Notes under the pieces: generated by a model | The model's database searches: none | What the model was told of the DNA's origin: nothing | The model's input: the letters and a program-made list of their open reading frames with translations, nothing else | Translations under genes and position numbers: made by a program | Source of the DNA: Halanaerobium praevalens DSM 2228 | Lineage (GTDB): Bacteria > Bacillota > Halanaerobiia > Halanaerobiales > Halanaerobiaceae | Assembly: GCF_000165465.1 (NCBI RefSeq) | Contig: NC_017455.1 | Coordinates: forward strand, 496,001-560,000 | Reading direction: 5' to 3' | DNA: 64,000 nt | Shown here: piece after piece, positions 19,568 to 36,661 of the stretch | How positions within the stretch are numbered: position 1 is the first letter of the stretch | Layout: every line of letters starts with the position of its first letter

Positions 19568-19600
19568 AGGATCTTTTCAAATTTTATGGAGGTGAGTTTA

Positions 19601-21142: not shown

Positions 21143-21152
21143 GGTGGATAAA

Positions 21153-22292
21153 ATGACAAAGAATGTAAAAGAAAGAGTTGCCGGAGTTTTTAATGAGGTG
21201 GCAGCAGCGATGGAGACAGGTCAGTTTGGTCAAAAAAAGAAAATTGGCCTAACTTTACTTGATAGTGAACATGGAGTAGATGAACTAAAAAAAGCTGCTC
21301 AGCTGGCTGAAAACAAATATAATGATTTAGAAGTAGATTTAATAGGTTGTGAGGGAGACAAATGCAGCTGTTTAGCAGATGCTCATTCTATAATGGATCA
21401 AAAATTAGAAAATGAGGAGCTTGATGCTGCAGTTACCTTACATTATAACTTTCCTTTAGGAGTGTCTACAGTTGGTAGAGTTATTACTCCTGGGCAGGGA
21501 AAAGAAATGTTAATTGCTACTACCACAGGCACTACTGCAACTGATCGAGTTCCAGCAATGCTCAAAAATACAATTTATGGGATTGCAGCTGCTAAAGCTT
21601 TAGGGATTGAAAAACCAACAGTAGGAATTTTAAATGTAGAAGGGGCCAGACTGGTAGAAAAAAATCTGCAGAAGTTAAAGGTAAATGGTTATCAGTTTGA
21701 ATTTGCAACTTCTGTTAGAGCAGATGGTGGTTCAGTGATGAGAGGTAATGATCTGCTTTTAGGAACTCCCGATATTATGGTAACTGATACTCTGACTGGA
21801 AATATGCTGATGAAAGTATTTTCTTCCTTTAATACAGGTGGCCAGTACGAAGCAGTGGGTTATGGTTATGGACCAGGAGTTGGAGAAGATTATGATAAAT
21901 TAATCGGGATTATTTCTCGGGCTTCAGGTGCTCCAGTAATTGCTAATGCACTGAAATTTATGGCAGAGGTAGCTCAGGGTAATTTATTGGAGCTGACTAA
22001 AACTGAATTAAAAGCAGCTAAAAAAGCTGGTTTAAATGACTTAATTGCTGAGCTAAAAGCTAAAAATTCAGCTGTAAAAGAGGAAAAAGTTAAAAAACCA
22101 GAAAAGAAAGTAACAGATGAAGAAATCTCAGGTATAGATATCTTAGAAATTGAAGCTGCTAAAGAAAGTCTCTGGCAGCAGGATATTTATGCAGAAACAG
22201 GTATGGGTTGTACAGGACCTGTAATTTTAATTGCTGAAGCTGATGAAGCTGAAGCAAGAGAAAAACTGCAAAAGGCAGGTTTTATTGAATAA
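21153..22292 (+). CDS. grdD: glycine reductase component C alpha subunit GrdD
   Basis: A 379-residue PlsX/phosphotransacetylase-like subunit that phosphorolyses the acetyl thioester to acetyl phosphate. The start at 21153 has GAGGTGG immediately upstream; an earlier in-frame ATG (21096) lies inside grdC. A conserved Cys353 sits in 'ETGMGCTGPVIL' near the C terminus, where GrdD proteins hold a catalytic Cys, and another Cys pair lies in 'GDKCSC' near 62-67. A Lys/Glu-rich linker near 305-325 separates it from the body. It is the last grd gene. Confidence 0.93.
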   Translation: MTKNVKERVAGVFNEVAAAMETGQFGQKKKIGLTLLDSEHGVDELKKAAQLAENKYNDLEVDLIGCEGDKCSCLADAHSIMDQKLENEELDAAVTLHYNFPLGVSTVGRVITPGQGKEMLIATTTGTTATDRVPAMLKNTIYGIAAAKALGIEKPTVGILNVEGARLVEKNLQKLKVNGYQFEFATSVRADGGSVMRGNDLLLGTPDIMVTDTLTGNMLMKVFSSFNTGGQYEAVGYGYGPGVGEDYDKLIGIISRASGAPVIANALKFMAEVAQGNLLELTKTELKAAKKAGLNDLIAELKAKNSAVKEEKVKKPEKKVTDEEISGIDILEIEAAKESLWQQDIYAETGMGCTGPVILIAEADEAEAREKLQKAGFIE

Positions 22293-22325
22293 CTGATATA
22301 AATTTGAAATTGAAATTCAAAAGCT

Positions 22326-22396
22326 TAAATATCTACCAGCTCGAATAATTAAAAATTAAGCTACATTTATAGACTAAGAGCTGGTTTAGATATTTA
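22326..22396. repeat. long inverted repeat after grdD
   Basis: TAAATATCTACCAGCTC (22326-22342) matches the reverse complement of GAGCTGGTTTAGATATTTA (22378-22396), apart from a two-base TT bulge. The loop is 35 bases. No T-run follows, so this is not a standard terminator. It could be a processing site, a structured 3' end or a remnant of a small mobile element. Confidence 0.6.
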
Positions 22397-22445
22397 TTTA
22401 AGAAAAATATTCCAAAAATTCTTAAAATACTAAAAGCAAGTTGAT

Positions 22446-22474
22446 TTGAAAAAGAGAAGAAAATCCTTTATAAT
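22446..22474 (+). promoter_or_regulatory. promoter of the AGCS symporter gene
   Basis: TTGAAA (22446-22451), a 17-base spacer and TATAAT (22469-22474), about 60 bases upstream of the start codon. Confidence 0.75.
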
Positions 22475-22533
22475 GATTATTGTTATATATTTCACAATTT
22501 TTATAAAATAAAATATTAGAAAGGGGAAATATT

Positions 22534-23907
22534 ATGGCTTTTTTTCAGTATGTGAATGGTATTCTCTGGGGACCGGTAATGTTAGTCTTACTTTTGGGGA
22601 CAGGAGTTTTATTTACCTGGAAGCTAAGATTTATTCAAATTAGACGGCTTAAATCTGCTTTTAAAGAAACTTTTGCTAAAATGTTTGATAAATCAATTGG
22701 GGCTGATGCAGCTGGAATATCATCTTTTCAAGCTTTAGCCACAGCAGTTGCTGCTCAGGTCGGTACTGGTAACTTAGTTGGGGTTTCAACAGCTATTGCA
22801 GCTGGTGGACCTGGAGCTGTTTTTTGGATGTGGATTAGTGGAGTTTTTGGAATGGGTACAGTTTTTGCTGAAGCAGTTTTAGGACAGGAATTTAAAGAAA
22901 GTGTAGATGGAGAGATGACAGGGGGTCCTGCTTTTTATATTCGTAATGGTTTGGGAAGTAAACCTTTAGCAGCACTTTTTGCGGTTTCTATAGTTGTAGC
23001 TTTGGGAATAGTAGGAAATATGGTTCAATCTAATTCAATTGCTACAGCCATGTCTGAGGCATTTGGAATTTCTACTTTAGTAATTGGAATTATTATTTCT
23101 ATTCTAGTGGGGCTAGTTATTATTGGTGGTCTTAAAAGAATAGCTCATATTACAGAAATGGTAGTTCCATTTATGGCAGTAATGTATTTTTTAGCAAGTT
23201 TAGCTGTGATAATAATTAACTTTGAGAGTATTATTCCTTCTCTTAAAATGATTTTTTATGGAGCTTTTAATCCAACAGCTGCTACAGGTGGAGTTATTGG
23301 AGTTTCAATTAAACAAGCTTTCCGTTATGGTGTAGCTCGTGGTTTGTTTTCTAATGAAGCTGGAATGGGTTCTACTCCTCATGCTCATGCAGTAGCTAAA
23401 GTAAATCACCCAGCTCAACAGGGATTAGTTGCTATTTTTGGTGTTTTCTTTGATACTTTTGTGGTTTGTACTATGACAGCTTTAGTAATTATCACTAGTG
23501 GAGTTTTCAAGAGTGAAGCAATGCGGGGGGCAGCAATGACTCAAGCTGGTTTTGCTCAAGCTTTAGGTGGTATGGGAGAGAAGTTTGTGGCGATTGGACT
23601 TTTCTTTTTCGCTTTTACGACTATAATTAGTTGGTATTACTTTGGTGAGGTTAATATTAAGTACTTATTTGGTAAAGGAAAAGTCAAAATTTATCGCTGG
23701 GTTGTTGTAGGATGTGTTATTTTAGGAGCTGTTATGAAAGTACCTGTTATTTGGGAAATGGCTGATATGTTTAATGGAATTATGGTTATTCCTAACGTAG
23801 TAGCTTTACTGGGGATGGTATCACTTGTTAGTAAAATTTATGATGATTATGAATATAATTTCTTAGAAGGAAAAGAATCAGAATATGAAAATAAAGATTT
23901 AAAGTAA
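22534..23907 (+). CDS. AGCS-family Na+/alanine or glycine symporter
   Basis: A 457-residue membrane protein of the alanine-or-glycine:cation symporter family (AlsT/DagA). Visible hallmarks are 'GTGNLVGVSTAIAAGGPGAVFWMW' near 76-99, 'GPAFYI', 'SNEAGMGSTPHAHA' near 273-286 and about ten hydrophobic segments. It imports alanine or glycine with Na+ (or H+). Its position after the grd genes makes glycine supply to glycine reductase the likely role, though it has its own promoter. AAAGGGGA precedes the ATG. A bidirectional terminator follows. Confidence 0.9.
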   Translation: MAFFQYVNGILWGPVMLVLLLGTGVLFTWKLRFIQIRRLKSAFKETFAKMFDKSIGADAAGISSFQALATAVAAQVGTGNLVGVSTAIAAGGPGAVFWMWISGVFGMGTVFAEAVLGQEFKESVDGEMTGGPAFYIRNGLGSKPLAALFAVSIVVALGIVGNMVQSNSIATAMSEAFGISTLVIGIIISILVGLVIIGGLKRIAHITEMVVPFMAVMYFLASLAVIIINFESIIPSLKMIFYGAFNPTAATGGVIGVSIKQAFRYGVARGLFSNEAGMGSTPHAHAVAKVNHPAQQGLVAIFGVFFDTFVVCTMTALVIITSGVFKSEAMRGAAMTQAGFAQALGGMGEKFVAIGLFFFAFTTIISWYYFGEVNIKYLFGKGKVKIYRWVVVGCVILGAVMKVPVIWEMADMFNGIMVIPNVVALLGMVSLVSKIYDDYEYNFLEGKESEYENKDLK

Positions 23908-23984: not shown

Positions 23985-25622
23985 TTACTCAGCTACAGTA
24001 CCTTCACCGAATCCTACTTCTTCTAACCATTCTGTAGGATAGCCAACAGATTGAATTTTGTCTGGATAGTTAATATATCCGTCATTATATTTATAAATCA
24101 TTTCATCAGCAAATTTCCACCATTCATCTACAACTTTTTTTGCATTATTATAGCTGTAGTCAGTTAAGAATTCTTTTGTTCTTTCTGGGCCATGTGAATC
24201 ATAGATTTCTAGAGCTGCATTATCAATAGCAGGCTGCATGGCAAAGAATTTATTTTCATATTTTTGCTGCATTGCTTGAATATCTTTTATCATATATGAA
24301 TATTTTAAGTCAGCCCAATTTGAGACGAAGTCAAAGGCCCACCAAGCAGATGATCTGTCAAATTTATCTCTTCTGCCTGAAGTAAAGGCTTCTGGTAGTT
24401 CTCTGGTACCACTGTAGATTGGAAGATAAACAGTAGAGTGAGGTGCATCTTCACCAAACCAGAGTATTGATTTAATGGGAGCAGGCATTGAACTACGTGC
24501 CTGACCAACAAAACTATAAGAACAGCGGAACATTGAAATAGCTCTTTCCCAATCCATATCTTTTTTATCTTCTGGTTTAACAGAATTAGGAGTAGGATAT
24601 CTATTTGGAGTACCAAAAGGGCCAGCTGCTAAGCCTTCAGTTAAGTCAAATCTGGTACCCTCATAATGATCACGCTTAATTGCCATTAAATCTCGAGCAG
24701 AAACTTTTTCATCAGGTTTAACTGAGAAAGGATAACGTTTTGCTTTAGGATCAAAATTCTGTGATGGAGCTAAAATAGATAAAACTCTCCATTCACGGCG
24801 TTTTTGATAATATTCTGCTCCATAAGGATTAGGATTATATGCTTCACAGAATAAGAATTCTTCTGCTGGATCCCACCAGCCCATATTTTCAGCAAAAGAT
24901 TTCACATTTTTAGAAGCCATTGCTTTTTCTGGATTATCTAGATCAAGTGTATCAATTCTACTTCTATTAGCAACTACACTAACATGGCCATCAGGCACTC
25001 TTTTAGCTGCCCAAATAGCACCAGGCTCTTCAGTTCCAGGAGACCAGATTGGACCTGGTCCAACGATTTCGAACATCCAGGCTTCTTCACCATCAATAAC
25101 AGTTAAACTTTCTCCACCATCAGCATAACCATATTTTTCAGCTAGTTCTCCCATAATTTTAACAGCTTCTCTAGCTGTTTTAGCTCTTTGAAGAGCAAGT
25201 CTTTCTAGTTCTTCAATCATTAAAATTGCATCTGTATTTTTTAATTCACTGCGACCACTAAAAGTTGCTTCTCCAATCATAACTCCGTGCTCGTTCATAA
25301 AAGGATAAGCAATATGGAAATAAGTATATGTTTCCGTTGCTTGGGGAATTTCTCCTAATTCAGTTACATTATAACCAGGTATTCCGTCATGACAGCGGGA
25401 ACTATAAACAGTAGTCATTGCATCAGCTTCAAACTTTTCTCCTTCAACAATTTGAATTCGAGCATCATAATTACCATCACAAGTGTGAGTTGTCATAACT
25501 GAGCCATCAACAGAGGCATCTTTACCAACCATAATAGAAGTACAGGCATTAACAGCAGATACTCCAACTAAACAGACTAGTAGAAAGGTTAGGGTCAGAG
25601 ATAGTAGTTTTTTATTAAACAT
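23985..25622 (-). CDS. exported C69-family dipeptidase (paralogue 1)
   Basis: Peptidase family C69 (PepD type): N-terminal-nucleophile hydrolases that use the amino-terminal Cys after propeptide removal. The 545-residue protein begins with a signal peptide (about residues 1-26) directly followed by Cys27 in 'CTSIMVGKDASVDGS', so cleavage of the signal would expose the nucleophile. Later blocks include 'WMFEIVGPGPIW' and 'MFRCSYSFVGQ'. AAGGGGG precedes the start. It is the last gene of the operon and is homologous over its length to the upstream neighbour. Substrate: probably extracellular dipeptides or short peptides. Confidence 0.85.
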   Translation of the reverse strand: MFNKKLLSLTLTFLLVCLVGVSAVNACTSIMVGKDASVDGSVMTTHTCDGNYDARIQIVEGEKFEADAMTTVYSSRCHDGIPGYNVTELGEIPQATETYTYFHIAYPFMNEHGVMIGEATFSGRSELKNTDAILMIEELERLALQRAKTAREAVKIMGELAEKYGYADGGESLTVIDGEEAWMFEIVGPGPIWSPGTEEPGAIWAAKRVPDGHVSVVANRSRIDTLDLDNPEKAMASKNVKSFAENMGWWDPAEEFLFCEAYNPNPYGAEYYQKRREWRVLSILAPSQNFDPKAKRYPFSVKPDEKVSARDLMAIKRDHYEGTRFDLTEGLAAGPFGTPNRYPTPNSVKPEDKKDMDWERAISMFRCSYSFVGQARSSMPAPIKSILWFGEDAPHSTVYLPIYSGTRELPEAFTSGRRDKFDRSSAWWAFDFVSNWADLKYSYMIKDIQAMQQKYENKFFAMQPAIDNAALEIYDSHGPERTKEFLTDYSYNNAKKVVDEWWKFADEMIYKYNDGYINYPDKIQSVGYPTEWLEEVGFGEGTVAE

Positions 25623-25635
25623 TTAATTTGCCCCC

Positions 25636-27198
25636 TTAATTATTATTAAGCTGGTAATAAAGCTCATCTCCAAGTTTCCAGTAACGATTTTCAGTCCAGT
25701 GCATTAAAGATTTAGTGTGATTTGTTAATAATTCTTTAACAGCTTTTTCATCTTGAGTTATATCAAGAATAACAGCCTTTTCTTCAATTTCTTTTTGTAA
25801 TTCAAACATATGATTTTGCATTGGTTTTAAAACAGAATCAACTTCAGGTTTTAAATCCCCATAACGCATATTAACAAAGTCATCTACGCGAGCAAAAGCC
25901 CACCAAGAAGAATCTCTATCAAATTTATCTCTGTTTAGAGTTTTCCAGGAAGTAGGTACAGCTTCAACACCAACATTCATTGGCACAAAAGGACTATTTT
26001 CTGGGTTATCAAGTCCAAACCAGATTACTCCTCCAATTTCATCAGGAAGCCAATTTCTTGATTGGGAAACAAAGAAATAAGAACAGTAATAACGAGCAAT
26101 TGGACGATAATATTCAAGATCTAATAATTGACGAGCTGCTCCATCTGCCTGTGGAGTAGCATAAACACTTTTTTTCATTTCTCCACTTTCGTCTTCATAA
26201 TACCAATTTTCATTGTCAGCCATATCATAAGGAGAATTTTCAGAAGTATCTCTAAACATTGCTATAACATCTTGAGCAGATACTTTTTTATCAGGCTTAA
26301 TAGAAAATGGATATTCTGCTGCTTTGTTATAATTCCAATTTTTAGATGGTGCCATTTCACTATAAACTCTCCAAAGTCTAAGACTAGTATCATCTTTTAC
26401 ATCACCATATACTTCATTCCAATAAAATTCTTCATTACTCTCAGAATCATAAATCCCAAGTTCTTCAGCTACCGCAATATAGTTATCAGAAACCATCATA
26501 TCATCTGCATCTGGATCTATTTTTCTGATTCTACTAAAATTAGGAACTACTGTTACATGGTTATCAGGTACTTTTTTAGCTGCCCAGACAGCACCAGGTT
26601 TTCCACTTTCAGGTGTCCATAAAGGACCAACTCCAAAAATTTCAAAAACCCAAACTTCATTTTTATCAGCAACTGTTAAGCATTCTCCTAAATAACAAGA
26701 TTCTTTGTATCCATATTTTTCAGCAAGTTTTCCCATTAATTTAATTGCTTCTCGAGCTGTTTTAGTTCTTTGGAGGGCAAAAATTTCTAACTGTTCAATA
26801 GTCATAATTGCTTCTTCACTATTAGTAGTTTCTCTTGCTCCGCCTAATGTAGTTTCACCAATAATTAATTGATGTTCATTTGCATAAGGATAAGCACCAT
26901 GAAAATATTTATAAGTATGTTCAGCTTGAGGTATTTCTCCGAGTTTAACTAAATCCATATGATCACCGTAAACAATATTTTCGTAAACTGGAGCCATTGT
27001 TCCAGACTCATGATCTTGAGCTGGAATAATTTGAATTCTAGAATCATATCTACCATCAACAGTGTGAGAAGTTATAACAGAACCATCAGTTGAAGCATCT
27101 TTACCAACAACAATATCAGTACAAGCTAAAGCAGAGCCACTAAGAACTAAAGTGATAATTAACAACAAGATTGTAGAAGTAGCAATTTTTCTTTTCAT
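25636..27198 (-). CDS. exported C69-family dipeptidase (paralogue 2)
   Basis: A 520-residue paralogue of the downstream gene. It has a signal peptide (about 1-25) and the candidate nucleophile Cys26 in 'CTDIVVGKDASTDGS'. Shared blocks are 'HTYKYFHGAYPYANEH', 'QRTKTAREAIKLMGKLAEKYGY' and 'IKPDKKVSAQDV'. AAAGGGGA lies upstream of the ATG and only 13 bases separate it from paralogue 1. Two diverged copies side by side suggest different peptide specificities. The Cys at +1 of the exported form raises the alternative that it is lipidated, but the -2 and -3 residues fit a lipobox poorly. Confidence 0.85.
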   Translation of the reverse strand: MKRKIATSTILLLIITLVLSGSALACTDIVVGKDASTDGSVITSHTVDGRYDSRIQIIPAQDHESGTMAPVYENIVYGDHMDLVKLGEIPQAEHTYKYFHGAYPYANEHQLIIGETTLGGARETTNSEEAIMTIEQLEIFALQRTKTAREAIKLMGKLAEKYGYKESCYLGECLTVADKNEVWVFEIFGVGPLWTPESGKPGAVWAAKKVPDNHVTVVPNFSRIRKIDPDADDMMVSDNYIAVAEELGIYDSESNEEFYWNEVYGDVKDDTSLRLWRVYSEMAPSKNWNYNKAAEYPFSIKPDKKVSAQDVIAMFRDTSENSPYDMADNENWYYEDESGEMKKSVYATPQADGAARQLLDLEYYRPIARYYCSYFFVSQSRNWLPDEIGGVIWFGLDNPENSPFVPMNVGVEAVPTSWKTLNRDKFDRDSSWWAFARVDDFVNMRYGDLKPEVDSVLKPMQNHMFELQKEIEEKAVILDITQDEKAVKELLTNHTKSLMHWTENRYWKLGDELYYQLNNN

Positions 27199-27223
27199 TT
27201 TTTAGAAATCCCCTTTCTAATTG

Positions 27224-28396
27224 TTATTCATAATAAACACGATCTGAATCCATATTAGCTGGATTTTTAAAATAATGCCCAACCCCATTTTCTATAATTT
27301 CTGCATATTTAGGCACATTTTTAATTTCTATCTCCTTTCCGGGGTTCATTTGGTTCCAGATCTGAGCAACCATTAGTGTAGTAGAACAGTGTCTGCCAAC
27401 TCGAACTTCAATTGGCCATCCGTCTTCATCAATTGTTTCATATAAAAGTCCAAATTCTCCTGCTCTTTGAACAAATGGATCTTGGCCTCTTAAAAGTAGA
27501 TCTTCATCTGTTACTCCACGAACTCGATCTAAAAACGGTTCTGGAGTTTCGAAAAGCAGTGAAACAGCATCTGAATGATCTCCTACCTCTCTGTGAGAGA
27601 GTCCATGTAAAGATTTAGGAGAAAATTCCATACTAATTGGCTCTTCAAATTCCATATCAGTTAAAGTCATTGAAGACATAGCAGCAATATTTCGACCAGA
27701 TTCATGAGCAACAATTGTACTAATTACTGGATATTCTAATTCTGCTTCATGATAATCAATGAAGAGATCAACCTTTTCTTTTTCAATAACTTGCATAAAA
27801 GCATAGTTTACTTGTTCAGTAAATGAACCATCTTTTTTGCCAGGCCAGGTTCGATTAAAGTTTCGAATATCCATATAAGCTAACATCTGTTTGCTGGGAT
27901 AATGAACATATACTTCAGGATCAGGCCAAGAATCTAGGGGGTTAGTCCATCTGTCTCCCATTCTATATTTTTTGGCTCCCCAATCTGTTTCTATAGTATA
28001 AAACTGTGGGTAAGCATCGCCAGGTCTAGTTACTGTCGAAGCACTCCTGTTAGCCCTAATAGCAAGAATTAATTTTCCTTTTTCTAAAATAGCATTTTCA
28101 GCAAATATTTCTGCACTAAGATTCGATGCTGGTTCTTCTGGGTGTGATCCACCTATGGCAAAGAAAGTAGCACCTGGTTTTCCACTATCTAAAATATAAA
28201 TATTACAATCCGCTACTGTACCTTTTAAAGGTTGGTAATAATCACCTAATGTATTGACTTGAGTAACAGATTTGCTTGTAACTACTGCTTCTTTGTGATT
28301 TCTGTGTTCAGTAAAAGCTTGACCTGAGATAACTAAAGCACTAATAACTATCACAGCGGTTATAACTTTGACTAAGATTAGATTTTTGCTAGACAT
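27224..28396 (-). CDS. exported M14/aspartoacylase-like zinc hydrolase
   Basis: A 390-residue protein with an N-terminal hydrophobic signal or anchor (about 8-28). Zinc-ligand motifs typical of M14/succinylglutamate-desuccinylase proteins are visible: H85-P-E-E88 in 'GGSHPEEPAS', 'NFNRTWPG' near 179-186 (the N-R-x-x-P substrate-carboxylate loop) and H216 in 'FIDYHEAE'. Such enzymes remove amino acids or acyl groups from peptide-like substrates. GAGGTG precedes the ATG. It sits between a permease and two dipeptidases in one operon, suggesting a shared extracellular peptide or polyamide substrate. Confidence 0.7.
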   Translation of the reverse strand: MSSKNLILVKVITAVIVISALVISGQAFTEHRNHKEAVVTSKSVTQVNTLGDYYQPLKGTVADCNIYILDSGKPGATFFAIGGSHPEEPASNLSAEIFAENAILEKGKLILAIRANRSASTVTRPGDAYPQFYTIETDWGAKKYRMGDRWTNPLDSWPDPEVYVHYPSKQMLAYMDIRNFNRTWPGKKDGSFTEQVNYAFMQVIEKEKVDLFIDYHEAELEYPVISTIVAHESGRNIAAMSSMTLTDMEFEEPISMEFSPKSLHGLSHREVGDHSDAVSLLFETPEPFLDRVRGVTDEDLLLRGQDPFVQRAGEFGLLYETIDEDGWPIEVRVGRHCSTTLMVAQIWNQMNPGKEIEIKNVPKYAEIIENGVGHYFKNPANMDSDRVYYE

Positions 28397-28407
28397 CTTT
28401 TTTCACC

Positions 28408-28572
28408 TCATTTAATCCTCAATATTCTAAGAATAAAAGGGATTATTATTACTGAATAGAGTACAGCTTCCTGAGCATCTTTGGTTTTTATAATTTCTCT
28501 CAGGAGTACAAAGGCAATAAAAGCACTGATAAGGTAATAACTGAACTCTATAATTGAATTTATAATACCCAT
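28408..28572 (-). CDS. 54-residue membrane protein in the transporter operon
   Basis: A small protein with two hydrophobic segments (about 3-20 and 33-52) separated by a charged turn 'REIIKTKDAQ'. The ATG at 28572 lies 7 bases after GGAGG; an in-frame ATG at 28602 has no ribosome binding site and overlaps the upstream gene. It directly follows the DctM-like permease and may be its small partner, but it is far shorter than a DctQ subunit (which has four membrane segments). No family recognised. Confidence 0.6.
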   Translation of the reverse strand: MGIINSIIEFSYYLISAFIAFVLLREIIKTKDAQEAVLYSVIIIPFILRILRIK

Positions 28573-28591
28573 AAAATAACCTCCTGATTTA

Positions 28592-29881
28592 TTATCCTCC
28601 AACTAAAAATGACAATTGATTACTAAAAACAAGAAAAACAGTACATAAAGCCAAAATAAAGCCCATTGGAATTAAACAGGTTTTAAGAAAATCTTTATAA
28701 TATCTTCCCTGATAATTTAATTCAATGACTGTTGCTCGGCCTACTACAGCTGTTGGTGGTAAAATATCTCCTAAAGGCCACATTACTGCCATAGCAGAAA
28801 GAGTTATAACTGGATTAAAGCCTTTCATATTAAATAAGAAAATTAAGGGTACTCCAATTAAAGGTGCTACAGCATATTGTAATAATCCTTCTGAGACTGG
28901 TAAGATAAGAAACAATGAAGCAAATAAAAACCAGACTGGCAGAGTTACTATAGCAAGTGAGATTAAACCTCTAGCCCCACTTAAAGCCATAATTTGAATT
29001 AAAATACCAACAACAATCATAATTCCGACTAGGGGAATTAAAGATCTAATTGTTTTTCCCGCAATATTAAGAATATTTAATTTTTTAGGACTTAAAATAA
29101 ACATTACTGAAGCAGCAATTAAAAACATTAACGGCAGTCCTAAGATCGGCATTTTAAAAGGAAAGAGTCTTCCTGCAACAATTAAGATAATTAAGATCAA
29201 AAATGGAGTTCCAACTCTAAACCAATTCATTTCTGCTGGTGGTTCTGGTAGTTCAGCTAGAATTTTTTCTAGTTCTGGATTTTCTCCCTTTGATCCCAGA
29301 AAAAACATTGTAAATAAAGCCCCAATACTTGTAATTATAAATAAAGGCTGCATAAAACCAACATAGGGCATATTTGCTCCGGCTGCAGCCATCATAGCCC
29401 AAAGATTAATGGGAGGAGCTGCAGCACTCATTGAAGCACAAACGAAAATAATTGCAGCAGTTTTGGTTTCAGAAATTCCCATATAAACTAAAACAGTCCC
29501 AACAAGTGTACCAACAGTTAAAACTGTTGCTGCCCCAGCCCCAGTTAGAGCTCCGGGAATCATTAAGATAAAGGTTAGAAATAAAAGAGTTAAATAGCGG
29601 TGCTCATGGAACCTGATTATAATTTTTCTAACCATAAAGACTATACCACCTGATTCTTTAACAAGATTAATAAAGAGAGTAGCAGTAATAAATATTAGTG
29701 AAACATCATAATATGTAAATGCACCCTCAACTAAATGTCTAACCGGCAGACCACCGGTATGATAAATAGCAGCAGCAAGAGCTGACAAAAGCATAGCCAG
29801 CTCGGTTCCTAGTTTAAAGTAGTTGCCGATTGCAAAAGTTACTGCTATTATGATGAGTATAATTCCAGCATGTAAAAACAT
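28592..29881 (-). CDS. TRAP/DctM-like (ion-transporter superfamily) permease
   Basis: A 429-residue protein with about eleven hydrophobic segments, a repeated 'G(A)ATVLTVGT' region near 118-126 and 'MWPLGDILPPTAVVGRA' in the last quarter, as in large permeases of TRAP and related transporters. The ATG at 29881 lies 6 bases after GAGGTG; the in-frame GTG at 29890 is within that site. No DctP solute-binding protein accompanies it. Instead the operon begins with an exported DUF6305 protein, which could act as the extracytoplasmic binding partner. Substrate unknown; amino acid or acyl-amino acid uptake is inferred from the neighbours. Confidence 0.68.
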   Translation of the reverse strand: MFLHAGIILIIIAVTFAIGNYFKLGTELAMLLSALAAAIYHTGGLPVRHLVEGAFTYYDVSLIFITATLFINLVKESGGIVFMVRKIIIRFHEHRYLTLLFLTFILMIPGALTGAGAATVLTVGTLVGTVLVYMGISETKTAAIIFVCASMSAAAPPINLWAMMAAAGANMPYVGFMQPLFIITSIGALFTMFFLGSKGENPELEKILAELPEPPAEMNWFRVGTPFLILIILIVAGRLFPFKMPILGLPLMFLIAASVMFILSPKKLNILNIAGKTIRSLIPLVGIMIVVGILIQIMALSGARGLISLAIVTLPVWFLFASLFLILPVSEGLLQYAVAPLIGVPLIFLFNMKGFNPVITLSAMAVMWPLGDILPPTAVVGRATVIELNYQGRYYKDFLKTCLIPMGFILALCTVFLVFSNQLSFLVGG

Positions 29882-29914
29882 TAAATACACCTCATTTCAG
29901 TAACAGTTAAACTT

Positions 29915-30478
29915 TTATTTGATATCAAATAATTCTTGAAAAGCTTTTCCCATTTCATTATTTTTATCAAAAAATATTGCTGGGATATTTAATTCTTCAC
30001 TTTTTTTACTAAAAAAGTCATCTTGATTACTTGAATCTTTAATAATTAGAGCATCACTTTGGGGCATAACAATTTCGATTGATTGAGCATCATTTTCATC
30101 TGCTCGTCTTGACATACCTTCAATATGAGCACCTAAGACCTGAAGCCCATTTTCTTTGGCAGTTTCAATTAAATTGTCAATTCTTTTAGCTTCTTGTTTC
30201 ATATTTGTGCCCGCAGCACCCATGCCTTTACCACTAGTACCCATGGTGACAATTAGAGTTTTGTAATTATTACCTTTTAAACCTTCGGCAGTTAAAAGAT
30301 CTTTTTGCTCAGCTTTAATTCCAACTTGTTGAGCAATCATTTTAACCATTAATGCACCAGGACTTTGACCACAGGTTGTGACTACAACTGGCTCTTCAAA
30401 GACCGGCATTGCAGCAGCACCAACAAATGTTAAAGTAAATAAGGTGATGACTGTTAAAAATAAGATTTTCTTAATCAT
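29915..30478 (-). CDS. exported DUF6305 protein
   Basis: A 187-residue protein with a signal peptide (about 1-22) and a single alpha/beta domain. Ordered motifs are 'VTTCGQSPGALMVKM', 'TLIVTMGTSGKGMGAAG', 'RRADENDAQSIEIVMPQSD' and 'FFSKKSEELNIPA'. The same motifs occur in the same order in the first 175 residues of the fusion protein at 32619-33827. The Rossmann-like pattern and export suggest a binding protein rather than an enzyme. The ribosome binding site GGAGG precedes the ATG. It heads the operon that continues into the permease. Identification as DUF6305 is from memory; function is unknown. Confidence 0.65.
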   Translation of the reverse strand: MIKKILFLTVITLFTLTFVGAAAMPVFEEPVVVTTCGQSPGALMVKMIAQQVGIKAEQKDLLTAEGLKGNNYKTLIVTMGTSGKGMGAAGTNMKQEAKRIDNLIETAKENGLQVLGAHIEGMSRRADENDAQSIEIVMPQSDALIIKDSSNQDDFFSKKSEELNIPAIFFDKNNEMGKAFQELFDIK

Positions 30479-30582
30479 AATTTTACCTCCTTTTTTTAAT
30501 TAGATATTTTCTTCACATAACTATATTTCCACTATTGTTGAAAGATTCCTACTTTTTCTCTTATTTCTCTTAAAAAATAAAA

Positions 30583-30626
30583 ACCACCAATTTAAATTAG
30601 CTTTTTTAAAAGCCTAAATTGGTGGT
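30583..30626 (-). terminator. terminator after the response regulator gene
   Basis: On the minus strand ACCACCAATTTA and TAAATTGGTGGT form a perfect 12-pair stem followed by TTTTTATTTTTT. It ends the pgs/two-component operon upstream of the DUF6305 operon. Confidence 0.88.
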
Positions 30627-30638
30627 GAAAAACTTAGG

Positions 30639-31268
30639 TTAAATTTTACTAGTTAGTTGATAATGATGGACAGGACGACCGATTTGACCATAATTTAATT
30701 TTACTTTTGCTAAGTTTTCATCATTTAAATAATTCAAATAACGATGGACTGTTTGGTAGGCTAAATTAGTTCCTGCTGAAATTTGGCTAATAGTTTCAGC
30801 TTTTTCTTTTTCTTTTAAATAATCAAAAATAATAGAAAGAGTTTTAAGAGTCATTCCTTTTGGGATATCTAAATCCTTTATAGCGGAATCTTTATGTTCA
30901 AGTTGGGGACTATAACTTAGGTGGAGCTTAATTCTAGAAATTAAATCAGCAGTTTTTATTGGCTTATTGGCAAAATCATCTGCTCCAGCTTCTAAGAATT
31001 TTTCAGCTAGATCTAAAGATTCATCAACTGTTAAGACTAAAATAGTAATTTCTTCATTAATTTTTCTAATCTTTTTTACTAATTTTAGTCCATTAATATC
31101 AGGCATATGATAATCAACTAATAGAAGATCAAATTTATTATTTTTAATTTGTTTTAAGGCATCTAAACCACTAGCTGTAGTTTTTAAATTTAGATCTGCT
31201 ACTTCAGCAATGGCTTCTAAGGTAAATAGAATATCTTGTTGGTCATCGACTGCTAATATTTTTTTCAT
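30639..31268 (-). CDS. response regulator, CitB/DctR-like
   Basis: A 209-residue two-component response regulator. The receiver domain (1-115) has the acidic pair D8-D9, phospho-acceptor D52 in 'LLVDYHMPD', T80 and K102. The C-terminal part (about 138-205) looks like a winged helix similar to the CitB/DcuR group ('ISQISAGTNLAYQTVHRYLNYL' near 161-182), which often controls carboxylate or amino-acid uptake. The start overlaps the kinase gene by 26 bases, with GAGGTGA inside the kinase coding region, showing tight coupling. Likely targets are the adjacent operons; no operator could be identified. Confidence 0.85.
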   Translation of the reverse strand: MKKILAVDDQQDILFTLEAIAEVADLNLKTTASGLDALKQIKNNKFDLLLVDYHMPDINGLKLVKKIRKINEEITILVLTVDESLDLAEKFLEAGADDFANKPIKTADLISRIKLHLSYSPQLEHKDSAIKDLDIPKGMTLKTLSIIFDYLKEKEKAETISQISAGTNLAYQTVHRYLNYLNDENLAKVKLNYGQIGRPVHHYQLTSKI

Positions 31269-32628
31269 TTTCTGTCACCTCTGGTAATAATATTTTAGCT
31301 TTAGTTCCTTGATTTAATTTACTTTCTATTCTAATTTCTCCATTGTGACTTGCTATCACATCTTTAACGAAATGGAGTCCTAATCCAGTATTTTCTATTC
31401 CTGTTGTATAACCTATTTTCCAAATATTATTAAGTTTGTCAGCTGGAATTCCCTGGCCATTATCCGTTATTGTTATTTTGATTAATTTATGTAATTTTTT
31501 TGCCCTAATTTTAATTTTCCCATTCTTTAAATCAATAGCTTTTAGGGCATTATCAATTAAATTAATTAAAGCTCTGGATAACCTAACTTTATTTGCTTTT
31601 AGCATTAAATTATCATTATATTCAAAAGATAGGTGGTCATCAATTTCTTCTAAAGCAAGTTGGATTTTAAGAAAATTAAATAATTCAGCTATTGATATCT
31701 TTCTTTTTTTATCATCATAAAGTATTTCTGAGATCATCTGGCCCATTTTATCAGCTGATTCGCTTATTTTTTCTGTATATTTATGTATTTTTTTATCTTC
31801 AACTTTTAAGCCTATTACCCCACTTAAACCCTGAATTGTAACAAGGGGAGTTTTTAAATCATGGACTAAATGTTTGATCTCACTAAAATATCTAGATTTA
31901 ACTGCTTCTAATTCTAATTCTCGTATCTTTTTTTCTTTTTCTTTACTTTCAGCCATTAACTTTAAATTATTATAATAATAAATAACTACTCTGGTTAAAA
32001 TTAGAGCATTAATCATAATTATGATTGAAAAAGTAAAACCAAAAAAATTCATTATATATTCGGCCCCTATAAATTCTGTTACTTCCCTAATTGAAACTAT
32101 AATTTCTCCTCTGCCAAAACCATAATCACTTAAAAACGGAATAATATCAAGCCAATCAATACTAAATAAGAAAAGAGAAATGATAATTGTTTTAATAAAA
32201 ATATGATGAATATCTTTAGTCATTAAATGGAGAATAAAAATGATTAAAATTGTTAGATAAGAAGGGCCAGCAAAAACAAAATCAATATTATAAATTAAAG
32301 TAATTAATTGATAAATTATGGGGATAATTATTAAAGTAATAAAAAAAGTGAAATTTTTAAAAGAACTTAGATTTTCAATGCTTTCTGCTAAGATAAAAGC
32401 TCCTAAATAAATAGGAAGATGTCTAAGAGTATTTAAAATAACTAATTTAGCAGAAACTAAAAGTAGTAAACCACTGTCTTGGCTTGCTATACTTTGATAT
32501 AGCTGGTGTAAAAGGTTGAATTGTGGTTTTTTAGTAAAAAAAGGTAAAACAAGGGCTCCTATAATTATAATTAAAGCTGCTAAAAATTTATTTTTGTCAA
32601 CTTTGCTAAAATCAAGTTCTAAGGCCAT
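31243..32628 (-). CDS. membrane sensor histidine kinase
   Basis: A 461-residue kinase with about six hydrophobic segments in the first 220 residues, a short coiled linker (228-248), then a HisKA-type dimerisation domain with phospho-acceptor His256 in 'HLVHDLKTP'. The HATPase_c domain has 'LINLIDNALKAI' (N box), 'DNGQGIP' (G1) and 'TGLGLHFV' (G2). There is no large extracellular domain, so sensing is likely within the membrane or through a partner such as DUF6305. It overlaps the preceding fusion gene by 10 bases and the response regulator by 26. Confidence 0.87.
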   Translation of the reverse strand: MALELDFSKVDKNKFLAALIIIIGALVLPFFTKKPQFNLLHQLYQSIASQDSGLLLLVSAKLVILNTLRHLPIYLGAFILAESIENLSSFKNFTFFITLIIIPIIYQLITLIYNIDFVFAGPSYLTILIIFILHLMTKDIHHIFIKTIIISLFLFSIDWLDIIPFLSDYGFGRGEIIVSIREVTEFIGAEYIMNFFGFTFSIIIMINALILTRVVIYYYNNLKLMAESKEKEKKIRELELEAVKSRYFSEIKHLVHDLKTPLVTIQGLSGVIGLKVEDKKIHKYTEKISESADKMGQMISEILYDDKKRKISIAELFNFLKIQLALEEIDDHLSFEYNDNLMLKANKVRLSRALINLIDNALKAIDLKNGKIKIRAKKLHKLIKITITDNGQGIPADKLNNIWKIGYTTGIENTGLGLHFVKDVIASHNGEIRIESKLNQGTKAKILLPEVTENEKNISSR

Positions 32629-33827
32629 ACTAGTTCAACTCCATTTGCTTTTAAAAATAACTCGATTAAGTTGAGTTGATAATTAATTCTTTTTGCTAAA
32701 GTTAATTTTTGACAGGTTTCTAGGGTAAAAGCTGGAATTTTCAAATGTTTACCAGTTGCCTGAGTTAAACTACCAGTTTTGGGAGGGCTAATTAAGCTAA
32801 ATTTTTCAATTTGCTTTTCTATGTCCTGATTAATTAACTCTACTACTTGTGCTCCTTGCCAAACTGATTGAGCAGTTGGATAAGCAATTATGGACTGACC
32901 CACATAATTTTTATTTAAACGATTAAAATTTTCAGATTCATGTAAATCAAGTAAAAGTTGAGGAGCAATTTTTTTAATTAAATCAAAGATAGCTGCAGCC
33001 CTTATTTGAGTATTAGTTATTTTTTTTGAGGGAGGAAAAGATCTATTAAGTTTTTCTGATTGAGGATAATTTCTTTGATTTTTATTACAGGCTTGGGGAT
33101 TTGCTCGTGGAATTACAACTAAACGACCTCCTTTGACCTCTGCTTTTTTAAGTTTTAAAGCAGCTAATTGAGATGCTATTTCATCACCATGAATACCAGC
33201 ATTTATTAAAATAGTTTTTGCTTTAGCTTGTCCATTAATATAGTAGGCAACATTTTTGGATTCTCCCTGAAAAAGTTTAGCAATTATTGGTTTTATTTGA
33301 GATAAATTTTCTGCTATAGCCAAAGGAATATCATTTTTTTGAGCTTTTTTTGAAAAATAATTATCAAAATTACTTTTTTTAGCGATAATTAAATAATCAG
33401 CAGCAGGAGCTACAAGTTCAAGTAATTGATCAGATTTTTGATCTCTACGATTTTTGCCACCTAGATGGGTTAAAATTATAAACTTGTTCTCCTGTTTTGC
33501 CTTTTTTATTAAAGCTCTACATCTTTTGAGTTCAGCTTCAAAATCAATTCCAGCTGCACTTATTCCTTTACAACTGTGACCGACTGCAATAATTAAAGTA
33601 GGATAATTTTCAATAGACTCAGCTTTTAATAAGGAATGATAGGTAAAATGAATATTTTGATTTTCTAGAACAACTTTGATCAGTAAACCATCAGGATTTT
33701 GACCAAGAGAGGTAACAGCTACAGGTTGAGCAGGATAATATTCTATATTTTTTGCTGAGCTAAAAAGATTAAAGCTCAAAAGAATGAGCAGACAGATTAC
33801 AATAACAATCCAAAAACTAGATTTCAT
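32619..33827 (-). CDS. DUF6305-like domain fused to M14-type zinc hydrolase
   Basis: A 402-residue protein with an N-terminal signal anchor (about 5-24). Residues 30-187 repeat the motif order of the exported DUF6305 protein ('LGQNPDGLLIK', 'VGHSCKGISAAG', 'YFSKKAQKNDIPL'). Residues 195-402 form an M14/AstE-like hydrolase: H213-G-D-E216, 'NRSFP' at 261-265, H296 in 'LLDLHES', and a late 'TLETCQ' with the presumed catalytic Glu. The fusion ties a possible binding module to an amidohydrolase acting outside the membrane. It overlaps pgsW by 11 bases, so its product probably acts on the polymer made by PgsB-PgsC. Confidence 0.72.
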   Translation of the reverse strand: MKSSFWIVIVICLLILLSFNLFSSAKNIEYYPAQPVAVTSLGQNPDGLLIKVVLENQNIHFTYHSLLKAESIENYPTLIIAVGHSCKGISAAGIDFEAELKRCRALIKKAKQENKFIILTHLGGKNRRDQKSDQLLELVAPAADYLIIAKKSNFDNYFSKKAQKNDIPLAIAENLSQIKPIIAKLFQGESKNVAYYINGQAKAKTILINAGIHGDEIASQLAALKLKKAEVKGGRLVVIPRANPQACNKNQRNYPQSEKLNRSFPPSKKITNTQIRAAAIFDLIKKIAPQLLLDLHESENFNRLNKNYVGQSIIAYPTAQSVWQGAQVVELINQDIEKQIEKFSLISPPKTGSLTQATGKHLKIPAFTLETCQKLTLAKRINYQLNLIELFLKANGVELVWP

Positions 33828-34935
33828 TCTTTATCCTCCTAGATTGATTATATTTAGTCCAAAATTTTGCTAAAAGCAAGGGTATAATTATAATTAATAA
33901 TAAGCTTGAAATTAGATGTTTATTATAATTGATAATATAATATACATCAGCTTGACCTGGTTTAGGTAGTGGAACAGGATCAATTTGAATTCCATTTTCT
34001 CTAGCCAAATTCTCGATATTCAATAAATGAATAACTGGAATGTTTTGACTAAGAAAATATGATAAAAGACCATTTTTGGCATATTCAGTATTCAATTTAC
34101 CTGGAATAGTTAGACCATTTTCAAACTTTACTGAAGCAGAAGTGCTGCCAAAGTTAGCTGAGGCTCCTCCAATATTAATAAAAGTTTTAATCTGATTAGT
34201 TTGAGAATTTTTCTTTAAAATATCTATTCTTTTTTGGATACTGGCCTCTAAATCTTCTTCATAAATTAAAGGGATAGATTCTTTTTCAGCTATTTTAAAA
34301 AAGGTGTTTTTGTTATCACTAAAAAAGAGATTATCTGCTCTGTCATTATCTCCCCCTAAGGAAAGAGCTCTAATCTTATAGCTTAATATTTGCTCTTTTC
34401 TGAGCTCTTTTAGCATTTCTATAAAACTGAAATTAGGGATATTAGCTCCATACATTGAAGATCCAAGTGAATAAATTAATTCCACTTTTAAATCCATTGT
34501 TTCACTTGCCGAAAGTACAGATAAAATTAAGCCGGGAAAAGAGCCGCTGGCTCCAATTGCTATTTTGTCACCTGCTTTTAAATTAAGTTTTTTAAAATAG
34601 TCAACCATTAAGGCAGCAAAGTCTGTATTAGTAGCTGTTCTCTTAGCTTTTAAATTACCAAGAGTAGTTGTAAGTTTAGTATATTCTTGACCAATCAAAG
34701 CAGTTTTATTAGGATCTAATTTAGTATTAACTTTTAAATTTCTAGCTTTTTTTGCCTGGTAAATAACTTTTTGGGCTGTCAGTACTTTTTGGGCAGCTGT
34801 GATTTGAGTTTTAAAAGCTGGATTTTCAGTCTTAGAGCTGCTAAAAAAGATAATAATTAAAGCAAAAATTGCTAGTAGAGCTGAAATAATAATTATTTTA
34901 ATATTAATTTTGGCTTTAACCCAGTTTGTAAACAT
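33817..34935 (-). CDS. pgsW: poly-gamma-glutamate system protein (PgsW-like)
   Basis: A 372-residue protein with one hydrophobic segment near 13-30 and another near 341-360, placing the middle outside the membrane. The core contains 'GDKIAIGASGSFPGLILSVL' near 138-157, 'SLGSSMYGANIP' and 'FINIGGASANFGS'. I recall this as the third-gene family accompanying short PgsB-PgsC operons. AAAGGAG precedes the ATG. Its biochemical role is not established. It may replace CapA/PgsA, which is absent here. The symbol is tentative. Confidence 0.65.
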   Translation of the reverse strand: MFTNWVKAKINIKIIIISALLAIFALIIIFFSSSKTENPAFKTQITAAQKVLTAQKVIYQAKKARNLKVNTKLDPNKTALIGQEYTKLTTTLGNLKAKRTATNTDFAALMVDYFKKLNLKAGDKIAIGASGSFPGLILSVLSASETMDLKVELIYSLGSSMYGANIPNFSFIEMLKELRKEQILSYKIRALSLGGDNDRADNLFFSDNKNTFFKIAEKESIPLIYEEDLEASIQKRIDILKKNSQTNQIKTFINIGGASANFGSTSASVKFENGLTIPGKLNTEYAKNGLLSYFLSQNIPVIHLLNIENLARENGIQIDPVPLPKPGQADVYYIINYNKHLISSLLLIIIIPLLLAKFWTKYNQSRRIKNEI

Positions 34936-34949
34936 TAAATTAAGCTCCT

Positions 34950-35378
34950 TTAGCTAAATAAAAGCATTAATAATCTTAAAAAGATTGAAAGAAAAATTAA
35001 AGCAGAAAGAGTAGCTGTAATTCCTTGTCTTAACATATCATTTGCAATTAGTCCTGGAATAATATAACCAATTACTCTTAAATCTTGTTCGATTGGAAAA
35101 AAATTTATAAAAATTGAACGGTAAAACCAGCCAATTAAATAACCGAGAATAACACAGGCTGTAAAACGGCGGCGACTATACATTATAATATAATTAGCTA
35201 AAAACTTCACAATCAAAAAAGTTAAAACTGCCGTAATAATAGTGGCTAAAATCCGGGAGGGTTCCTGCCAGAAAAAAGCCAAATAACCAGGTACAATAAT
35301 TCCTCCTGTATAAAATCCTGTTAGTTCTGTAAAAATAAAACTTAAAAGAATCCCAATTCCAACTGATTCAATTAACAT
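34950..35378 (-). CDS. pgsC: poly-gamma-glutamate synthesis membrane protein PgsC/CapC
   Basis: A 142-residue membrane protein with about five hydrophobic segments, close to the usual ~149 residues of CapC. 'GFYTGGIIVPGYLAFF' near 21-36 and 'SRRRFTACVILGYLIGW' near 68-84 are CapC-like. PgsC forms the membrane synthase/export complex with PgsB. GGAG lies 9 bases before the ATG, inside the end of pgsB, and the genes overlap by 11 bases. Confidence 0.85.
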   Translation of the reverse strand: MLIESVGIGILLSFIFTELTGFYTGGIIVPGYLAFFWQEPSRILATIITAVLTFLIVKFLANYIIMYSRRRFTACVILGYLIGWFYRSIFINFFPIEQDLRVIGYIIPGLIANDMLRQGITATLSALIFLSIFLRLLMLLFS

Positions 35379-36576
35379 TTAATTCAACTCCAAATTTTTC
35401 AAAATAAGCTGCGATTATTTCTCCATCTCCATGAATATTACCACAAGCAAAAATTATCAAATTTCTTTTTGGTTCTAAATTATTAAAAAAATTACTTAAC
35501 TTTTTAAATTTATTTAAATCAAAAAAGAATAAATTTAATTTTGAAATATTTTGTTTAGAATTTAAGTTCTTTTTTAATAATCTTTGTTGTCTAAATTTTA
35601 AGGCACCACTTAATAAAAATCCATCAAACCTATTTTTAAAGCTGAGAAAATTAATAAATTCTTTTAATCTAAATGCTCGATCACTGCGGTGGTTAATCAA
35701 AGCATAAAGAGCTGGTTTTTCAACTGGAAATTGCTCTAATTTTTTAGTTATTTTCTGCCAAATTATTTCGGTTGAATCACGATCATTAGCAGCAAAAGCA
35801 TTAATGAAAATAATATTTCTACCCTTATTTTGATAAAGATAAGTTTTTAAGCTACCGGGATCAGCAGTAACTGAGTACATACCTGCTAAAGCTGTTTTTT
35901 TATTTATCTTAAAAGAAGAGGCTACTTTTAAAGCACAGGCAATATTTTCTTTAAAAACAGTTTTTTTAAAGGGCTTCAGTTCTGCCTGACTAATCTTAAT
36001 ATCAGAAATTGTGCTGTAAAGATTATTTCTTTTTTTAGCTTCTTTTTTAATTAAAGATTCTAAATTCTTTTCAGCAGAAATAACATGGGCAGACTGTGGG
36101 AGGCTTAAACAGATTGTTTGGGCAATTTCTTTAAGATTACTCCCCATTTTATCTAAATGATCATTTCTAATATTAGTAATTATTGTATAGTCAGCTTTTA
36201 AAAAAAGGTGTTCACTACTCCATTGAATTTCTGGAGAAATAGCCATACATTCAATTACTAAAACATCGACTTTTTCTTTAACTGCTAATTGAACTATTCT
36301 TTTTTGCTCTGAAATACTGGGTGGACCATGACGAAGTAAATCTTTTTCACTTCCATCAGGATAGATTATTTTAGCAGCAGTTCCAGTCGTTTTAGCTAAG
36401 ACCTGAAGCCCATCTGCTCTTAAAGCAGCAGCAGTTAATCTAGTTGTAGAAGATTTACCCCGAATACCATTAACATGGACTATTTTGGGGATTTTATTTA
36501 AATTTTTTTTATGATTTTTCTTTTCCCAAATTCCAGTTATAATTAAAATTATTGTAATTAAAGTTATAACTTGCAT
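35368..36576 (-). CDS. pgsB: poly-gamma-glutamate synthase PgsB/CapB
   Basis: ATP-dependent amide ligase of the Mur-ligase superfamily that polymerises glutamate through gamma-carboxyl bonds at the membrane. The 402-residue protein has an N-terminal hydrophobic segment (3-16), the P-loop 'GIRGKSSTTRLTAAALR' from 37, 'RHGPPSISEQKRIVQLA' and 'VIECMAISPE' (acidic Mg-binding region), and 'TNIRNDHLDKMG', all as in CapB. GAAAGGGA precedes the ATG. It is the first gene of a six-gene operon with its own promoter at 36633-36661. The actual monomer (D/L-Glu or another acidic amino acid) cannot be read from sequence. Confidence 0.88.
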   Translation of the reverse strand: MQVITLITIILIITGIWEKKNHKKNLNKIPKIVHVNGIRGKSSTTRLTAAALRADGLQVLAKTTGTAAKIIYPDGSEKDLLRHGPPSISEQKRIVQLAVKEKVDVLVIECMAISPEIQWSSEHLFLKADYTIITNIRNDHLDKMGSNLKEIAQTICLSLPQSAHVISAEKNLESLIKKEAKKRNNLYSTISDIKISQAELKPFKKTVFKENIACALKVASSFKINKKTALAGMYSVTADPGSLKTYLYQNKGRNIIFINAFAANDRDSTEIIWQKITKKLEQFPVEKPALYALINHRSDRAFRLKEFINFLSFKNRFDGFLLSGALKFRQQRLLKKNLNSKQNISKLNLFFFDLNKFKKLSNFFNNLEPKRNLIIFACGNIHGDGEIIAAYFEKFGVELNVN

Positions 36577-36632: not shown

Positions 36633-36661
36633 AGTTTACTATAAAGATATAGAGATATCAA
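36633..36661 (-). promoter_or_regulatory. promoter of the pgs operon
   Basis: On the minus strand TTGATA (36661-36656), a 17-base spacer and TAAACT (36638-36633), about 57 bases before the pgsB start. It is divergent from the argG promoter; the -35 boxes are about 70 bases apart. Confidence 0.65.

Follow-up and report, generated by a model that had tools for sequence, protein, structure and literature searches.

A 64,000-nucleotide stretch of the Halanaerobium praevalens DSM 2228 genome (contig NC_017455.1, positions 496,001 to 560,000; hereafter the window) carries on its minus strand a block of twelve genes in which a poly-gamma-glutamate (PGA) synthase lies next to a permease, several hydrolases and a sensor kinase system. 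Comparison across genomes supports the conclusion that the two halves of this block form one conserved system, and their linkage is far beyond chance. In our reading, to which we give a probability of roughly one in two, the block would work as a single unit that runs an extracytoplasmic cycle of a gamma-glutamyl polymer and acts as a recoverable store or buffer of glutamate.

All twelve genes listed in the first-pass annotation, a reading made from the DNA letters alone, were found on this strand at the positions that it had given (Table 1), and Pfam and NCBIfam profiles confirmed PgsB, PgsC, PgsW, both DUF6305 copies, the kinase, the regulator and the two C69 enzymes. Block A encodes PgsB, PgsC and PgsW, a fusion of DUF6305 with an AstE-type hydrolase, a histidine kinase and a response regulator; block B encodes a stand-alone DUF6305 protein, an IT-superfamily permease (hereafter the permease), a 54-residue membrane protein, an AstE-type hydrolase and two C69 Ntn-hydrolases. 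The overlaps of 10 to 26 bases claimed for four block A junctions were measured as 11 (pgsB/pgsC), 11 (pgsW/fusion), 10 (fusion/kinase) and 26 bases (kinase/regulator), and pgsC and pgsW are separated by a gap of 14 bases without overlap. Intergenic gaps in block B span 11–25 bases, and the 160 bases between the two blocks contain a hairpin resembling a terminator as well as a conserved 24-bp box. Since the published architecture of the H. praevalens type strain GSL is Gram-negative (PMC3156398), the exported proteins of this organism probably face a periplasm.

Linkage of the two halves across genomes

Lack of conserved linkage between the two halves in relatives had been set beforehand as the refuting outcome, and the linkage was found to be kept. 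The full twelve-gene order recurs in three other Halanaerobiaceae, two of which lack the first C69 gene. Of 38 genomes sampled from the order, five carried PgsW. DUF6305 was detected in these five and in a sixth, 76%-complete genome (G028), where a locus (L082) has DUF6305, the permease, the small membrane gene, the hydrolase and the kinase but no PgsW was detected. Of the 11 other Halanaerobium genomes searched, 10 had neither DUF6305 nor PgsW.

Co-occurrence was measured with a permease profile (A2) built from PgsW-linked permeases and searched genome-wide, so that the tallies are independent of adjacency. In a phylum sample of 299 genomes, DUF6305 was detected in 39 and PgsW over its cut-off in 21, with both in 19 (p = 2.5e-17); strong permease matches were found in 19 genomes, every one of them with PgsW (p = 4e-28), leaving two PgsW genomes (G253 and G300) without such a match. 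A second phylum sample of 247 genomes, taken around an Aminicenantes genome, gave 19 genomes with PgsW and 21 with the permease, the overlap comprising all 19 (p = 2e-26), and the two permease-only genomes (G415 and G556) hold truncated copies at contig ends. The permease was also strongly matched in 15 of 16 further PgsW genomes from several phyla, even where PgsW was not adjacent to it.

A scan of genome contigs with a PgsW alignment yielded 80 loci, labelled as Bacillota/Clostridia, Atribacterota, Thermotogae/Kosmotogales, Spirochaetes, Acidobacteriota, Aminicenantes, Gemmatimonadales and KSB1. At the 40 loci with both genes, the permease lay downstream of PgsW in 9, upstream in 10, back to back in 9 and facing it in 12, and because all four orientations occur, the closeness of the two genes outlives rearrangement. 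Pairwise identities of PgsW and of its neighbouring permease were correlated (r = 0.585, against a best of 0.212 in 999 permutations), a correlation that reflects shared inheritance as well as coupling. Twenty of the 29 loci with 8 kb available on both sides hold permease, DUF6305 and hydrolase; as most loci were fetched by PgsW, such adjacency rates are conditional on that choice. In Clostridium tetanomorphum and Clostridium pascui (L130, L148) both halves stand on one strand in the order gamma-glutamyltransferase (GGT), DUF6305, permease, small gene, hydrolase, second hydrolase, PgsB, PgsC, PgsW, kinase and regulator. This single gene run, the neighbours in four orientations elsewhere and the genome-wide co-occurrence of the markers bear out the earlier proposal that the two halves are one system.

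Block order within the Halanaerobiaceae could by itself be a matter of inheritance, but a chance or inherited neighbourhood devoid of functional meaning is hardly conceivable in view of the co-occurrence in both phylum samples and of the four-orientation linkage across phyla. It would also be unlikely, in our judgement, that two separate functions merely sit side by side in peptide-fermenting anaerobes, with PgsBCW making a capsule or wall-attached polyglutamate (GGT acting as CapD) and the DUF6305, permease and hydrolase module scavenging peptides. The C69 and AstE-type enzymes, together with a DUF6305 trio found beside oligopeptide transporters (see below), would suit the use of peptides, and CapD, a GGT-family enzyme, is known to anchor PGA (PMC4497714). 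Nevertheless, independent functions should separate frequently, whereas a permease without PgsW occurred in none of the 299 genomes and only as the two truncated contig-end cases among the 247, and Clostridium holds both halves in a single gene run.

The synthase and the hydrolases

PgsB and PgsC match the equivalog models TIGR04012 (359 bits, cut-off 222.7) and TIGR04011 (127.3 bits, cut-off 96.45), and PgsW is a clear member of the NCBIfam family TIGR04332 (381.5 bits, cut-off 100). The predicted structure of PgsW (predicted local distance difference test (pLDDT) score of 92.3) shows a hydrophobic helix at either end and a Rossmann-like core between them. This model has no close solved relative, the best match reaching Z 7.2, which indicates a common arrangement only, with no Foldseek match at E<=0.001; profiles of PgsW and of the permease likewise gave no meaningful match to the sequences of solved structures. 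The order PgsW-PgsB-PgsC, rather than PgsB-PgsC-PgsW, was seen in Kosmotogales (L103, L104, L111, L135). In Atribacteria (L089-L091, L095) PgsW runs with acyl-CoA dehydratase-activase-type genes and a sodium/solute symporter, with PgsB and PgsC not adjoining, and one genome of this group (G339) has no strong permease match.

A search of the whole genome for PgsA/CapA returned no PF09587 match over the cut-off (best 22.5 bits, cut-off 27). The lack of a detected PgsA would fit a synthase whose product is not a long polymer but a small gamma-glutamyl amide or some modified surface molecule, the permease then being an exporter or exchanger, and IT-superfamily carriers (CitMHS, DcuC, DctM) do usually move small anions. 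We nonetheless regard this as quite improbable, as both PgsB and PgsC exceed the cut-offs of equivalog models for polyglutamate synthases, the several permeases per PgsW of some genomes are ill-suited to an exporter, and Bacillus subtilis pgsBC still yields PGA without pgsA (PMC6029982).

The free AstE-type hydrolase of the window scored 15.8 bits against AstE_AspA (PF24827), below the cut-off of 25, whereas 20 of its 20 relatives match the family (best 1.2e-9), and residues H85, E88, H216 and E283 are invariant in their alignment (A5). The same domain in the fusion protein scores 50.9 bits, above that cut-off; in Halanaerobiaceae it is the second hydrolase that is fused to DUF6305, and in L050, L130 and L148 each of the two domains has a gene of its own. 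Both C69 enzymes match Peptidase_C69 (PF03577; 182.7 bits for hydrolase 1 and 243.7 for hydrolase 2) and carry a cysteine after the hydrophobic N-terminus, at the position of an N-terminal nucleophile; hydrolase 2 scores 211.6 against the dipeptidase equivalog NF033678, short of the cut-off of 250.

In many relatives GGT occupies the place of C69. The C. tetanomorphum enzyme matches PF01019 and TIGR00066 with 591 and 596 bits, and phylum-wide PF01019 matches fall at the same coordinates as the GGT genes of the modules. Across the 299-genome sample, GGT was present in 20 of 21 PgsW genomes and in 85 of the 278 others (p = 3e-9). GGT is a known exo-hydrolase of gamma-PGA; in B. subtilis, ggt is unlinked to pgs (PMC4497714). 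The equivalog matches of PgsB and PgsC and the occurrence of GGT inside the same modules in relatives support a gamma-linked product, which may be gamma-PGA or gamma-oligoglutamate; of the polyamides proposed in the first-pass annotation, it is the gamma-linked form that gains support.

The cluster resembles Bacillus PgsBCA/CapBCA in its PgsB and PgsC equivalogs and, in relatives, in its synthase-linked GGT-type hydrolases (cf. CapD and B. subtilis GGT). It differs in having PgsW and no detected PgsA/CapA in the genome, and in the transporter, the AstE-type hydrolases and the DUF6305-kinase system that are attached to it. The putative zinc hydrolases of the block share with PghP/YndL a zinc carboxypeptidase-type character and an association with gamma-PGA, PghP being a known gamma-PGA hydrolase of that type (PMC4497714), but are of AstE/AspA type in sequence, have a hydrophobic N-terminus and come from the cluster of the producer itself.

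DUF6305, the kinase and the transporter

DUF6305 (PF19823) was matched with 175.7 bits in the fusion and 177.8 in the short exported protein. The kinase consists of HisKA and HATPase_c domains, and the regulator of Response_reg (91.6 bits) and HTH_45 (29 bits). Of 15 fetched genomes with DUF6305 but no PgsW, 14 have it directly 5' of a kinase and a regulator from these same families, and this trio also adjoins PgsBCW in L094, L097 and L098. Because the trio exists as a free unit, the sensing proposed in the first-pass annotation is plausible for DUF6305 together with the kinase. As in three-component sensor systems, an exported domain is encoded directly before the kinase and regulator; here, however, that domain is DUF6305, fused to a hydrolase in Halanaerobiaceae.

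Oligopeptide transporter (opp) genes lie near most of the PgsW-less trios; at L067-L081, from PgsW-less Bacillota, the free unit (for instance at 9402-11987 of L069) stands beside oppABCDF. Opp-linked neighbours of 715/736 and 668 residues, considered as peptidases, were rejected upon their identification as PcrA helicase and DNA ligase. A gene that we take to be DUF917-like lies between DUF6305 and GGT in L092 (12795-13913) and L176 (7085-8230).

The structure predicted for the stand-alone DUF6305 protein (pLDDT 94) is a single alpha/beta domain of Rossmann/flavodoxin-like fold, with conserved GQS, G.S.KG.GAAG, E..R and RR loops. An alignment (A3) that had misplaced separate hydrolase-domain proteins against DUF6305 was excluded from the fold work. 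The fold search returned many Rossmann, SGNH and flavodoxin-like chains with middling scores and no family standing out; the best match, to a B12-binding domain (Z 9.3, 114 residues at 2.9 A), indicates a common arrangement only. The C. tetanomorphum DUF6305 protein matched a model of S-methyl thiohydantoin desulfurase weakly (2.4e-7), far below the cut-off. DUF6305 may be an extracytoplasmic ligand-sensing domain common to a kinase and a transporter.

The window permease has about 12 hydrophobic segments and scores 18.7 bits against DctM, below the cut-off of 23.8, whereas 9 of 12 relatives match DctM at E up to 0.5 (best 2.6e-12) and relatives also match CitMHS, DcuC and Na_H_antiporter. For the window proteins themselves, DctM as the name of the permease and AstE_AspA as that of the free hydrolase (M14-type in the first-pass annotation) are below threshold; both names hold at the family level in relatives. 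A small membrane gene adjoins all 65 distinct permease genes that were fetched; on the same strand within 3.5 kb, an AstE-type hydrolase accompanies 63 of the 65 and DUF6305 59, while the same module holds GGT in 22 and C69 in 27. The small protein has 48-62 residues across relatives and ends in a conserved iPF.LR.lriK motif (consensus of 69 rows). Genomes with one PgsW and up to five permease modules were found at L165-L184 (G073, G150, G211, G236, G115 and others), a group in which L169 has several GGT genes in tandem.

The gene set recalls TRAP transporters (DctP-DctQ-DctM), which likewise combine a large IT-superfamily permease with a small membrane protein and a soluble exported one. In contrast to the four-helix DctQ subunit, however, the small protein has 54 residues and two hydrophobic segments, and the soluble protein is the single-domain DUF6305, whose model has no clear solved relative, and not DctP. 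A TRAP transporter proper was rejected, as the permease is below the DctM cut-off and the small protein is not of DctQ type.

As regards non-coding elements, the hairpin between the blocks, followed by a T run, is kept in relatives despite sequence variation. The 24-bp box AGAGAAATAAGAGAAAAAGTAGGA upstream of the DUF6305 gene is near-identical in four Halanaerobiaceae, and with up to 3 mismatches allowed it has no second match in the window or the genome; it stands upstream of block B only, with no copy at the pgsB promoter at that tolerance. A promoter scan gave 61 sites, equal to the shuffled expectation of 60.8, so that single promoter sites carry no weight without conservation; the -10 side of the promoter-like site before pgsB (CTTTATAGTAAACT) is kept in four genomes. 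Immediately to the left of the block (window positions 18359-23907) lie likely glycine/betaine reductase genes, as read from the sequence, and the amino acid carrier AgcS (TIGR00835), whose gene also adjoins the block in G014.

Table 1. Genes and candidate non-coding elements of the H. praevalens block, in window coordinates.
Feature	Position	Strand	Family or basis
pgsB, ligase of poly-gamma-glutamate synthase (Mur-ligase type, P-loop GIRGKSS)	35368..36576	-	TIGR04012
pgsC, membrane subunit	34950..35378	-	TIGR04011
pgsW, 'poly-gamma-glutamate system protein'	33817..34935	-	TIGR04332
Fusion: hydrophobic N-terminus, DUF6305 and AstE/AspA-type zinc hydrolase domain	32619..33827	-	PF19823, PF24827
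Sensor histidine kinase, about six hydrophobic segments	31243..32628	-	HisKA/HATPase_c
Response regulator, winged-helix output domain	30639..31268	-	Response_reg, HTH_45
Terminator-like hairpin between blocks A and B	30571..30627	-	CACCACCAATTT...AAATTGGTGGTTTTT
Conserved 24-bp box upstream of block B, candidate regulatory site	30547..30570	-	four Halanaerobiaceae
Exported stand-alone DUF6305 protein, hydrophobic N-terminus	29915..30478	-	PF19823
Permease, IT superfamily (DctM/CitMHS/DcuC-like)	28592..29890	-	profile matches of relatives
54-residue protein, two hydrophobic segments, C-terminal iPF.LR.lriK motif	28408..28572	-	conserved permease neighbour
AstE/AspA-type zinc hydrolase, hydrophobic N-terminus	27224..28396	-	relatives match PF24827; alignment
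Exported C69 Ntn-hydrolase 1, Cys at expected processed N-terminus (ALA-CTD)	25636..27198	-	PF03577
Exported C69 Ntn-hydrolase 2 (VNA-CTS)	23985..25622	-	PF03577
Promoter-like site before pgsB	36633..36661	-	TTGATA-17-TAAACT

A proposed gamma-glutamyl polymer cycle

In this cycle, PgsB with PgsC would join glutamate through gamma-amide bonds and extrude the chain, as expected from their families, with PgsW as a putative accessory subunit where PgsA/CapA is not detected. Outside the membrane, the chain would be trimmed to glutamate or short gamma-glutamyl pieces by the AstE/AspA-type zinc hydrolases together with Ntn-hydrolases, which are C69 enzymes here and GGT in many relatives. The permease, the 54-residue protein and the exported DUF6305 protein, whose genes are associated, could form a transporter that re-imports these pieces. 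DUF6305 would also be the extracytoplasmic partner of the histidine kinase, and the Halanaerobium fusion may let the response regulator react to polymer or its fragments. Such a cycle could serve as a surface-held, recoverable glutamate store or buffer.

Several observations weigh against this reading. No promoter motif common to blocks A and B was found, and among the 29 loci with 8 kb on either side, 9 have PgsW and the permease apart. The DUF6305 model lacks the two lobes of a classical binding protein. In H. praevalens a PF01019 search found no GGT, so that the depolymerising step would fall to the C69 and AstE-type enzymes. Finally, several genomes hold three to five permease modules and a single PgsW, a number of transporters beyond what one polymer would call for.

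The presence of up to five permease modules beside one PgsW motivates a different arrangement, in which the PgsBCW polymer would be an external gamma-glutamyl donor, GGT or C69 would use it to tag amino acids and peptides outside the cell, and the DUF6305, permease and small-protein transporters would import the tagged compounds, whose tags are then split. Each of the several modules has its own Ntn-enzyme, the permease was found without PgsW in neither phylum sample except on truncated contigs, and the same DUF6305-kinase-regulator trio stands beside oligopeptide transporters in other genomes. On the other hand, this donor scheme would be costly in energy, and the hydrophobic N-terminus of the free AstE-type hydrolase suggests action outside the membrane, which fits trimming better than splitting after import; we judge it unlikely. 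Its boldest form is likewise unlikely: PGA would be an external gamma-glutamyl currency, with one PgsBCW feeding several GGT- or C69-loaded transporters that import tagged nutrients. This would parallel the gamma-glutamyl cycle of glutathione with a polymer in its place, under the watch of a DUF6305 three-component sensor.

As for the purpose of the polymer cycle, the first-pass annotation had suggested a salt-stress or nitrogen store. Salt stress was rejected as the main role on distribution, the system being present in gut Oscillospiraceae, Clostridium and Aminicenantes records and its markers DUF6305 and PgsW missing from most other Halanaerobium genomes searched. A role as nitrogen store may be possible.

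Already known are the chemistry of PgsBC and, in NCBIfam, the name of PgsW. In the literature searched (open-licence full texts) no paper was found on DUF6305, TIGR04332 or PgsW in such a context, nor was the obligate company of permease, small protein, AstE-type hydrolases and DUF6305 sensor.

The usual picture of PGA is that of a Bacillus capsule or slime, which is lost or broken down slowly. The genomic evidence for the system described here appears strong: the synthase and PgsW are accompanied, in Bacillota, Acidobacteriota-type, Thermotogota, Spirochaetota and other genomes, by a dedicated permease, a small membrane partner and hydrolases. If the proposed cycle is true, it would define a recoverable extracellular pool of glutamate or gamma-glutamyl compounds and provide the first functional hypothesis for DUF6305, PgsW and the conserved 54-residue membrane protein, hypotheses that could be tested in the cultured strains H. 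praevalens DSM 2228, C. tetanomorphum DSM 4474 and C. pascui DSM 10365.

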